From assembly GCA_030525445.1 (NCBI GenBank), contig JAUNEQ010000006.1, positions 1 to 33,135 of the forward strand: a stretch of DNA of 33,135 nt. Reading direction: 5' to 3'. The notes under the pieces were generated by a model. The model was not told the DNA's origin. It did not search any database and saw nothing but the letters and a program-made list of their open reading frames with translations. The position numbers and the translations under genes were made by a program. Of the stretch, positions 16,219 to 19,287 are shown piece by piece; the stretch's first letter is position 1; every line of letters starts with the position of its first letter. This stretch comes from Coriobacteriia bacterium (GTDB taxonomy: Bacteria; Actinomycetota; Coriobacteriia; Coriobacteriales; Eggerthellaceae).

Positions 16219-17400
16219 TTGGCTCCCGAAACCACGCAGAAGCTCTGGACGCCCGCAAACAAAGTGACGCTTGCGCGCATCCTCGCCATTCCCGTATTCC
16301 TCGCGGTCGTCATCGCCCCATGGCCCGATTACCTTCCGTACTGGCCCGATGCCGAATCTTGGAAACCGCTCATCGCGGCCATCGTTTTCATCGTGATTTC
16401 GGCGACCGATGCCGTTGACGGCCATTTGGCCCGAAGTCGCGGCGAAGTGACCTCGCTGGGCAAGTTCATGGACCCGCTTGCGGACAAGCTGCTTGTGACA
16501 GCCGCTTTGCTCGTGCTGGTGGAGATGAGCGTGCTTCCCTCGTGGGTGGCGCTCATCATCATCTCGCGCGAATTCATCGTTTCGGGCATCCGCATGGTTG
16601 CGGCGAGCGAAGGCGTCGTCATCGCGGCGAGCTGGTGGGGCAAGGTCAAGACCGTGACCCAGATCGTCGCCATCGTGCTTTTCCTCGTGAAGGGCACCTC
16701 CTGGTTGGGAACGTATGACCAGAGCTTCAGCGACGGCATGTACACCCTCGCTTGGGTTGCCATGGGCCTCGCGATCTTCTTCACCATCGTGAGCATGCTC
16801 GATTACTTCAGCAAGTCCCGTGATCTGCTTGGCTTCACCAAGCATGCGCGTCGGGAAGATGTCGAGAAATACGACTACATGCGCGTTTCGGAAGATTCCT
16901 GGGAGCGCGAATTTCCCACCAACGCCGACCTGGAAGAACAGGCGGCGGCGCTCATCGACCGAGCTCGTGAAGCGGGCGTTATGCTGGGCACGGCCGAGAG
17001 CTGCACAGGCGGTCTCATCGGCGCCACGCTCACCGACATCCCCGGATCGAGCGATGTGGTGGCTGGCGGAATCATCAGCTACACCAATGATGTGAAGCGC
17101 GAGAGGCTTCATGTTCCGGCCGAGGTGCTCGAAGCGCATGGAGCGGTGAGCGAGGAAACTGCGTGCGCGATGGCCGAAGGCGCTCGAAGCGAGCTTGGCG
17201 TCGACATTGCGGTCGCGGTGACGGGAATCGCCGGTCCGGGTGGAGCTGTTCCTGGCAAACCGGTTGGAACGGTTTGGATCGGCGTATCGGACGCGCAAGG
17301 CACCGAGGCTCAGCTTTTCACGTTCGACGGCACCCGTTCGCAGGTGCGCGCGCAGACGGTGCGGGAAGCTTTGAAAAAAATCTCGGAGCGCATTAGGTAA
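16219..17400 (+). CDS. pgsA: PgsA-CinA fusion: phosphatidylglycerophosphate synthase plus CinA/PncC amidase domain
   Basis: Residues 1-~200 form the CDP-alcohol phosphatidyltransferase that makes phosphatidylglycerol phosphate. The motif D64-x2-D67-G68-x2-A71-R72-x8-G81-x3-D85-x3-D89 is complete, and several membrane segments lie between residues 18 and 195. After a charged linker (~200-235) comes a full CinA C-terminal/PncC-type domain (~238-392). Its catalytic serine lies in AESCTGG (Ser261), and TGIAGPGG and PVGTVWIG follow. This domain deamidates NMN. The frame is continuous without a stop. In Firmicutes pgsA and cinA are adjacent separate genes just before recA, so the fusion keeps that order. 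Start is TTG one base after rimO. The internal ATG at codon 221 has no good ribosome site at normal spacing. Confidence 0.92.
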   Translation: MAPETTQKLWTPANKVTLARILAIPVFLAVVIAPWPDYLPYWPDAESWKPLIAAIVFIVISATDAVDGHLARSRGEVTSLGKFMDPLADKLLVTAALLVLVEMSVLPSWVALIIISREFIVSGIRMVAASEGVVIAASWWGKVKTVTQIVAIVLFLVKGTSWLGTYDQSFSDGMYTLAWVAMGLAIFFTIVSMLDYFSKSRDLLGFTKHARREDVEKYDYMRVSEDSWEREFPTNADLEEQAAALIDRAREAGVMLGTAESCTGGLIGATLTDIPGSSDVVAGGIISYTNDVKRERLHVPAEVLEAHGAVSEETACAMAEGARSELGVDIAVAVTGIAGPGGAVPGKPVGTVWIGVSDAQGTEAQLFTFDGTRSQVRAQTVREALKKISERIR

Positions 17401-17425
17401 TTAGATAGCCCAGTTCAGAGCAACG

Positions 17426-17486
17426 ATTTGACCGTTATTTGAGAATTATTTGAGAGAAATTTGAACTACCTCGAAGAATAATTTGA
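17426..17486. repeat. Array of ATTTGA repeats at exact 11-bp spacing upstream of recA
   Basis: ATTTGA begins at 17426, 17437, 17448, 17459 and 17481. The slot at 17470 holds the degenerate CTCGAA. All steps are exactly 11 bases (about one helical turn). The array lies 40 bases upstream of the recA -35 element. OmpR/PhoB-type response regulators bind direct repeats of about this size and spacing, and an AT-rich phased array could also bend DNA. Assignment to a binding protein is inference. Confidence 0.75.
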
Positions 17487-17525
17487 TTTCGGTTCCGTAC
17501 GCTTTGCAAAAGAACAGGCAATCGC

Positions 17526-17553
17526 TTGACACGCGAACGCCCGTTCGTATAAT
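17526..17553 (+). promoter_or_regulatory. recA promoter (consensus -35/-10)
   Basis: TTGACA (17526-17531) and TATAAT (17548-17553) are both perfect sigma-70-type hexamers with 16-base spacing. The start codon of recA is 32 bases downstream. Confidence 0.93.
17534..17547. promoter_or_regulatory. LexA (SOS) box in the recA promoter
   Basis: CGAAC-GCCC-GTTCG is an exact match to the Gram-positive LexA/DinR consensus CGAAC-N4-GTTCG. It fills almost all of the spacer between the -35 and -10, so bound LexA would block RNA polymerase. No lexA gene is in the window. Confidence 0.93.
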
Positions 17554-17585
17554 GGTATGGAATCGAACAATGGCAAGGAGTTGAA

Positions 17586-18632
17586 ATGGACGAAGCCAAG
17601 GAAAACATGCTCAAGCTCACTACCGAGCAGATCGAGAAGAAGTTCGGCAAAGGGTCGATCATGAAGCTCGGCGAGGGAGAGAACGACCTGAATGTGGGCT
17701 TCATCCCCACTGGCGCGTTGCCGCTTGATGCCGCATTGGGCATTGGCGGCGTTCCCCGTGGGCGCATCATCGAGATTTATGGCCCTGAATCGAGCGGCAA
17801 GACGACGCTGGCTTTGCACATCATCGCAGAAGCCCAGGCGACGGGCGGCATCGTCGCTTTCATCGATGCCGAGCATGCGCTCGACCCGGTGTACGCGGCG
17901 AGGCTTGGCGTCGATATCGACGAGATGCTCATCTCGCAGCCCGATACCGGCGAGCAGGCGCTTGAGATTTGCGACATGTTGGTCCGCAGCGGGGCCATCG
18001 ATTGCGTCGTCGTCGACTCCGTGGCCGCGCTCACCCCTCGTGCAGAACTCGAAGGCGAGATCGGAGACACGACGGTTGGCCTCCAGGCGCGTTTGATGTC
18101 ACAGGCTTTGCGCAAGCTGGCCGGTTCTCTGTCCAAGTCGAATACGACGTGCATTTTCATCAACCAGCTTCGCGAGAAGATCGGCGTCATGTTCGGGAAT
18201 CCCGAAACCACGCCCGGCGGCCGTGCCTTGAAGTTCTTCAGCTCGGTGCGTCTTGATATTCGCCGTCGTGACACGATCAAGGACAAGGGAGAGTCCATTG
18301 GCAACCGCGTCCGGGTGAAGGTCGTCAAGAACAAGGTCGCCCCTCCGTTCCGTCAGGCGGAATTCGACATCATGTATGGAACCGGTATCTCCAAATCGGG
18401 CTGCATCCTCGATATGGCAGCGGAATGCGATGTCGTCCATAAGAGCGGATCTTGGTACACCTACGGCGAAGAGCGCTTGGGACAGGGCAGGGAAGCGGCA
18501 AAGCAGCGTCTCGAGGAGAACCCCGGCCTGCGTGAGCAAATCGAGAATAAGGTGCGTGTTGAGTTTGGCATGCCCACCATTGGCGATGCTTCGGAATATG
18601 CCGATGCCGACCCTGTTGTCGAAGAGCTTTAG
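17586..18632 (+). CDS. recA: Recombinase RecA
   Basis: RecA forms filaments on single-stranded DNA, drives strand exchange and stimulates LexA self-cleavage. The 348-residue protein has Walker A GPESSGKT at residues 66-73. The MAW/L1 area, the L2-type stretch [21 protein letters not shown] and an acidic C-terminus (ending DADPVVEEL) are also present. No intein is present. The ribosome site is AAGGAG before the ATG. It has its own strong promoter with a LexA box and is followed by recX after 25 bases. Confidence 0.98.
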
Positions 18633-18657: not shown

Positions 18658-19287
18658 ATGGGCAAGCTTGCGACGATAGAGCGCTTGCAATCCATGATTG
18701 ATGCGGTTTCCGCCCAAGACGAAACGGCATTCGACGTTGTTTCGGGCGGCTTGCGCGATGCAAGCCGTCCGAAAGCAACGCGGAAACGTCGAAAGTCACC
18801 TTCCCCAGACGATGACGGCATACCGCCAGCAAAGAAGGCGTATAACCGCGTCATCGAGCTTTGCGGCTACCACGATTTCTCGTGCGCGAAAATGCGTGAG
18901 CGGCTCAAACGCGAAGGGTTGCCCGCTGATGCTGTCGAGGATGCGATTGAAAAAGCCGTTCGAATTGGGCTCATCGATGATTTGAGATGGGGAGAGATGC
19001 GGGCGAGCGCGCTCATGCGGCGTGGCATGGGCAGGATGGGCATTGTCCGTGAGCTGAAGGAAAACGGAATAAGCGCCCACGACATCGATGGGTGGCCAGA
19101 AGAGTACGAAGAGCGTTTCGGGGATGAATTGCAGCGCGCACTTGGCGTGCTCGAAAAGAATCCGCCACGTTCGAAGAACCTCCGCGCTTCGGCATACGGG
19201 AAACTCATGAGAAAGGGATATGATTCTTCTGTGTCAGCGCAAGCGAGTGGTATATGGTTTGCGCGACAATACGAAGGCAACGAATAA
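18658..19287 (+). CDS. recX: Regulatory protein RecX
   Basis: RecX binds RecA filaments and limits or modulates their activity. The 209-residue protein has the helical-repeat core from ~residue 62 (AYNRVIELCGYHDFSCAKMRERLKREGLPADAVEDAIEKAVRIGLIDD is typical). The match continues with ARSALMRRGMGRMGIVRELKENGIS-like spacing. Residues ~37-55 are a basic linker. The ATG has only a weak ribosome site, consistent with lower expression than recA. Its position 25 bases behind recA indicates cotranscription and SOS induction. Confidence 0.9.
   Translation: MGKLATIERLQSMIDAVSAQDETAFDVVSGGLRDASRPKATRKRRKSPSPDDDGIPPAKKAYNRVIELCGYHDFSCAKMRERLKREGLPADAVEDAIEKAVRIGLIDDLRWGEMRASALMRRGMGRMGIVRELKENGISAHDIDGWPEEYEERFGDELQRALGVLEKNPPRSKNLRASAYGKLMRKGYDSSVSAQASGIWFARQYEGNE

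Follow-up and report, generated by a model that had tools for sequence, protein, structure and literature searches.

An 11-bp repeat array upstream of recA in a Coriobacteriia bacterium as a probable SARP-activated, SOS-independent competence promoter

Upstream of recA in a Coriobacteriia bacterium of the family Eggerthellaceae lies an array of 11-bp direct repeats. Judged from its sequence and from its counterparts in related genomes, it probably belongs to a SARP-activated, SOS-independent competence promoter that precedes the LexA-controlled promoter of the gene, with a SARP encoded next to secA as the regulator. The window, i.e., the whole stretch of DNA analyzed here, comprises 33,135 nucleotides. 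Our computations established the array itself, its genome-wide copies, the target genes and a fixed promoter geometry. They also showed that the register is conserved while the repeated word drifts, and that a single SARP gene is conserved. Throughout, G000 denotes the window's own genome (an 82% assembly) and G001 and G002 two genomes of the same genus; all three are incomplete. The features of the recA locus are as follows.

16219 to 17400, plus strand: PgsA-CinA fusion, the upstream gene, 393 aa (a single ORF with Pfam matches to CDP-OH_P_transf and CinA)
17426 to 17469, plus strand: putative upstream activator array, four tandem ATTTGA-N5 units of 11 bp (exact matches; units shared by at least nine G000 promoters)
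17470 to 17480, plus strand: CTC element CTCGAAGAATA, -40 to -30, over the -35 region (consensus CTCATAACGTT in other G000 promoters)
17481 to 17491, plus strand: last repeat ATTTGATTTCG, -29 to -19, 17 nt from the -10 hexamer
17498 to 17503, plus strand: putative -10 hexamer TACGCT (TANNNT) of the array promoter (aligned with other G000 promoters)
17526 to 17553, plus strand: second, downstream promoter with TTGACA (17526-17531), LexA box CGAACGCCCGTTCG (17534-17547) and TATAAT (17548-17553), from sequence
17586 to 18632, plus strand: recA, 348 aa, array target gene (ORF; 39 of 41 genomes each gave a single best match)
18658 to 19287, plus strand: recX, downstream of recA (Pfam RecX_HTH1 and RecX_HTH2)

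Five ATTTGA copies had been reported in the preliminary description at 17426, 17437, 17448, 17459 and 17481, and all of these coordinates are exact. The copies share a single, exact 11-bp register, which lies far beyond the shuffles: among 2,000 dinucleotide shuffles of 17401-17585, one register never held more than two copies (two were reached in 1 shuffle), compared to the five observed. In 100 shuffles of the whole window, four of six slots were never filled by any hexamer at lags of 6 to 15. When motif density in shuffled sequence, as proposed previously, is taken as the yardstick, it is the 11-bp register that is unusual, while ATTTGA itself is not enriched and occurs 11 times in the whole window against 14.2 expected. 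Tandem Repeats Finder detected the array as a short repeat with an 11-bp period, in line with a chance or neutral tandem repeat. We regard such an origin as hardly credible, given that the unit is only partly conserved, that none of the 2,000 shuffles exceeded two copies in register, and that the structure recurs before functionally linked genes, including com genes.

The position at 17470 had been described as a degenerate slot of the array. It is indeed occupied by CTCGAAGAATA, which is however not a decayed repeat but a conserved element of the promoter family. A -10-like hexamer, TACGCT at 17498-17503, had been overlooked. As this hexamer follows the array, the array appears to form a promoter of its own. 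Assuming that TACGCT spans -12 to -7, the CTCGAAGAATA slot covers -40 to -30 and the last repeat -29 to -19. Transcription is predicted to start near 17510, which places the four-unit array at -84 to -41. Further downstream, and apart from the array promoter, a CGAAC-N4-GTTCG box is present at 17534-17547. The LexA-controlled promoter described there previously was seen with all its elements (TTGACA, CGAACGCCCGTTCG and TATAAT) and is kept in G001 and G002. From established knowledge of Gram-positive LexA boxes, we take 17526-17553 to function as a LexA/SOS promoter.

The end of the PgsA-CinA gene is separated from the array by 25 bp. G005, which belongs to another genus and is a complete genome of 3.4 Mb, has an ORF of PgsA-CinA size at the corresponding place. 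When the recA leader was folded as RNA, nothing notable emerged (z -1.4). Elsewhere in the window, at 313-367, two 28-bp near-repeats contain the palindrome GGGGACAGTCCCC / GGGACTGTTCCC, with 3 matches against 0.27 expected.

To survey the remainder of G000, we used the pattern ATTTGA-N5-ATTTGA with one mismatch allowed, which gave 23 matches compared to 0 for the reversed control pattern; a looser array pattern gave 27 compared to 0. These and the following regulon counts derive from pattern searches. A genome-wide search for further arrays had been suggested before, and the same layout was found in front of at least nine transcription units. The array is thus not a regulatory feature of recA only, as a genome-wide set of promoters carries it. 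Arrays of three to six units precede comEA-comEC, yraN-comM-dprA, the Tad-pilus operon, in which cpaB is the first gene behind the array, and rpsF-ssb. Further targets are a nuclease of the PD-(D/E)XK (Rpn-like) type, two ~300-aa proteins without family match and a large thioester/SpaA-domain surface protein. The assignments of cpaB, rpsF and ssb were made by eye, other domain assignments, where given, by domain searches.

Alignment of nine G000 promoters revealed a common layout of (NTTTGAN5)3-6, a CTC slot resembling CTCATAACGTT, one more repeat, six bases and TANNNT. The TANNNT hexamer aligned in eight of the nine; cpaB departs with CATCCT, and its row carries a one-base offset due to the anchor chosen. 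The distance from the last repeat to the -10 is 17 nt in the aligned G000 promoters and in most promoters of G005. The targets in G000 include classic proteins of natural transformation together with accessory genes. With comEA, comEC, dprA, ssb, recA and uptake pilus genes under one control element, the arrays very likely mark a natural-competence regulon. The suggestion that recA receives a second, SOS-independent input is therefore very probably right, the array and its own -10 representing one member of this predicted regulon.

Several array-controlled genes encode proteins of ~300-330 aa without Pfam or NCBIfam match (L042:2495-3388, L043:3010-3960, L190 and L194). Proteins of this type show a DUF559-like C-terminus by eye and occur in all three congeners. 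Large SpaA/thioester-domain surface proteins with a competence array were seen in several genomes (L041 at G000:C88, L185 in G005 and L189 in G001), which suggests that an adhesin is co-produced with the uptake machinery. An initial assignment of L181 as radC was dropped, as it has no Pfam match.

Conservation in relatives had been proposed as a check of the array, and its outcome was divided: the 11-bp register is kept, but the ATTTGA word is not, and changes across all examined promoters of a genome together. Within the window's genus, the array words are TTTGAG, TCTAAG and TCTGAG, and in another genus CGCTKGA. G001 and G002 keep both the register and the target genes with TCTAAG or TCTGAG as word, and in G002 the -40 to -30 slot reads CTCGGAACT and is fixed. 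G000 has target genes in common with G001, G002, G005, G007 and G009, where they stand under other words. G005 carries CGCTKGA arrays with 110 overlapping matches against 0 for the control, distributed over ~20 promoters. Their geometry equals that of G000, with ACGCCAT in the slot and a TATNAT-like -10, a statement from which two of 15 promoters, misplaced by the script, are left out.

Array targets in G005 include recA, comEA, yraN-comM, a comF-type gene, rpsF-ssb and cpaB, as well as several toxin-antitoxin pairs of RelE/HigBA, BrnTA-like and AbiEi type, a DUF559 protein and a surface protein. Toxin-antitoxin modules were found directly behind arrays at L169, L170, L174, L175, L176, L178 and L183 in G005 and at L201 in G009, and include RelE/HigBA-type, AbiEi, BrnTA-like and RelBE-like systems. 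From this position, they are predicted to share the competence regulon. Behind another array in G009 (L200:513-623), a hydrophobic ORF of 36 aa, MTDLALFAAALQLLSSVIVLVAVIVERLPIRKDGEP, looks like a small membrane toxin or a signal peptide.

A lag test blind to the motif was applied to 90 upstream regions. Lag 11 was significant in 25 of them, compared to 4, 2, 2 and 4 for lags 8, 10, 13 and 14. Lags 9 and 12 were also raised (16 and 9 regions), mainly in the comM and comEC flanks with coding DNA, where codon periodicity weakens the test. Eight of 30 recA upstream regions passed at lag 11, and more may be missed; the window's own recA array was found via its word and not via this coarse test. Membership of recA in the regulon is patchy across the relatives, a point against the proposed recA promoter.

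These comparisons also bear on intrinsic DNA bending, which had been put forward as an alternative. According to this explanation, the phased array would act as a UP-like or architectural element and no specific activator would be involved. The units in the window are AT-rich and helix-phased, as bending would have it. However, the CGCTKGA units of G005 and G009 lack A-tracts and occupy the same register and place, and the words are specific and change together across a genome. Because G005 holds the register with a GC-rich, A-tract-free word, we consider intrinsic bending very unlikely.

The geometry of the arrays was then compared with known systems. In published SARP promoters, direct repeats are 11 or 22 bp apart and the 3' repeat is located 8 bp from the -10 (PMC10936776). 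The afs box of AfsR consists of two 11-bp repeats at -40 to -19, of which the upstream one lies over the -35 (PMC10936776), and the operators of PimR are composed of heptamers with 4-nt spacers (PMC5930380). The arrays described here likewise show direct repeats at these spacings and a repeat pair at -40 to -19 with the upstream one over the -35. While the exact 8-bp distance to the -10 depends on how the heptamer is placed within the 11-bp unit, the slot positions do not. As the published SARP repeat positions equal the array positions, a SARP fits.

AfsR at afsS of Streptomyces coelicolor (PDB 8HVR, 8JKE and 8K60) shares with the arrays the 11-bp direct repeats, the -40 to -19 pair, a weak -35 and a regulator with DBD and BTAD. 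It differs in having two slots where four to eight are present here, and in controlling antibiotics, whereas our arrays show competence targets, a fast-drifting word and, in the long forms of the regulator, a C-terminal DBD-BTAD. The number of units, above the two or three usual in Streptomyces, is a point against the SARP reading. The PimR/SARP-LAL operators of Streptomyces natalensis resemble the arrays in their three tandem heptamers with 4-nt spacers, and their SARP likewise carries a large ATP-binding part (PMC5930380). In PimR, however, the SARP part is N-terminal instead of C-terminal, and the single target pimM contrasts with ~10 to 20 promoters here.

We could identify a BTAD gene at the Pfam cut-off in most of 41 genomes (one copy in 34, two in one, none in six), and profile A1 recovered a SARP in two of the six negative genomes, G025 and G034. 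This profile aligns with EmbR and AfsR over DBD and BTAD. The proteins show the SARP arrangement of an OmpR-type wHTH followed by a BTAD, with Trans_reg_C sub-threshold in G005. Wherever the downstream neighbor was read, the SARP gene lies directly upstream of secA, with the exception of G007, in which it is followed by a gene for cytochrome bd. Between the SARP gene and secA, a BrnTA-like pair is found in G005 and a short gap in a few others, and in G001 comFC lies near the SARP gene.

In most genomes, the DBD-BTAD forms the C-terminus of a protein of 840 to 1,000 aa with a P-loop-like APxGFGK stretch near the N-terminus, while the SARP of the window's genus is short (~290 to 320 aa). When L342 of G005 was set against L339 and L340 of G002 and G001, the SARP of the window's genus seemed to have dropped the long P-loop part at the N-terminus but to have kept the DBD-BTAD and, in G002, the adjacency to secA. 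Where array words differ between genomes, the recognition helix of the SARP differs as well, whereas G005 and G009, which share a word, have similar helices; this link between helix and word is qualitative. By reading of the alignment, the positions corresponding to the base contacts T88 and R92 of AfsR are among those that vary.

In G000, neither the Pfam search nor profile A1 returned a BTAD protein, and no SecA was found either. As SecA is missing too from this 82% assembly, the SARP/secA locus is probably located in an assembly gap; if so, the secA of G000 would be expected to adjoin a short SARP whose helix resembles KKRNCFYNLWYV. G040 carries arrays and gave no SARP match, and a contig ends just upstream of its secA. 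In G004 (98% complete), another gene lies upstream of secA, and no SARP, ComEC or ComM was found. This single case would fit a joint loss of the SARP and comEC/comM. The SARP gene itself is preceded, at a distance of 270-340 bp, by array-like 11-bp repeats in L344 (G036, near flipped position 156) and L343 (G007, near flipped position 2518), so that autoregulation of the SARP is possible.

The preliminary description had read the 11-bp spacing as a sign of an OmpR/PhoB-type response regulator. Pho boxes bound by such proteins consist of 11-bp direct repeat units, occupied head to tail by a wHTH fold. They thus resemble the arrays in their repeats, and the fold is the same as in the SARP candidate. 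The SARP candidate, in contrast, has a BTAD and no receiver domain. The OmpR-type winged-helix fold of the original idea stands, but a response regulator is the less likely binder: those OmpR/PhoB orthologs (PF00486) that could be compared have identical or near-identical recognition helices in G000, G001, G007 and G009 despite differing words, and show no co-variation with the word.

Should the regulon be right and the binder be another protein, candidates would be, for example, a classical OmpR/PhoB protein, against which these invariant helices argue, or a response regulator with a SARP-like wHTH. The latter, the best of the alternative regulators, is present in the window's own genome (G000:C42, L337) and in G002 (G002:C39, L338). 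It combines a receiver domain with the SARP-like wHTH, its DBD is detected by the SARP profile with E values of 2.6e-9 and 5.7e-11, and it is flanked by a LytS-type kinase and an ECF sigma factor. However, G000 and G002 have nearly identical versions of its helix though their words differ, and no such regulator was found in G001 (85% complete). Overall, we judge such a change of binder to be improbable.

MerR- or BldC/CarH-type proteins also recognize 11-bp head-to-tail repeats. CarH binds tandem 11-bp direct repeats, one of them over the -35 (PMC9304148), but it represses, and does so with the word nnnnTnnACAn. No fitting MerR candidate was found here: the three congeners have only one MerR/CarH-like protein (PF13411) in common, which resembles HspR and whose helix is conserved, and they share no HTH_17/BldC-like protein (PF12728). 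A binder of this kind is accordingly rated as highly improbable. A search for regulator genes beside tad, comEA, comFC, yraN and recA in G005 gave none that was convincing.

Returning to the SARP next to secA, we infer that it binds the arrays and activates from them, and that the targets give transformation. The array with TACGCT would represent an activator-dependent recA promoter within the natural-competence regulon. An activator of the SARP type, with OmpR-type wHTH and BTAD, would bind head to tail with one molecule per 11-bp turn. The protomer pair on the last two slots (-40 to -19) may touch RNA polymerase and sigma region 4 in the manner of AfsR on afsS, and the extra upstream units may add cooperativity or a threshold. 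Once the regulator is active, recA would be co-expressed with ComEA-ComEC, YraN-ComM-DprA, SSB and the Tad pilus regardless of DNA damage, while the downstream LexA promoter would retain the SOS response of the gene.

Competence regulons of Firmicutes are run by ComX and ComK, and transformation of Micrococcus luteus depends on the Flp/Tad system. From general knowledge, the target set described here has comEA, comEC, dprA, ssb, recA and pilus genes in common with these, but, unlike in Firmicutes, no ComX or ComK box is present. In January 2026, the competence regulator of Micrococcus luteus, and that of Actinomycetota, was described as unidentified (PMC12849477). In the open-access literature, we found no report linking SARPs to competence and none of transformation in Coriobacteriia. 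SARPs are a known class of activators that bind sites with the array layout seen here, and in this literature they had not been tied to a competence role.

Beyond the recA locus, we lean toward the idea that one SARP acts as master switch of competence in the class Coriobacteriia, with its word rewritten per species in all 9 to 20 promoters at once, and that in some species it also drives toxin-antitoxin modules and nucleases. Eggerthellaceae are gut bacteria for which few genetic tools exist. With the arrays, a promoter code, a list of targets and a named candidate gene become available for tests in culturable members of the family. If true, our reading would explain an increase of recA without DNA damage and would add DNA uptake to the antibiotic control exerted by SARPs. 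It would also provide a clear example in which a regulator and all of its regulon change their recognition sequence together.
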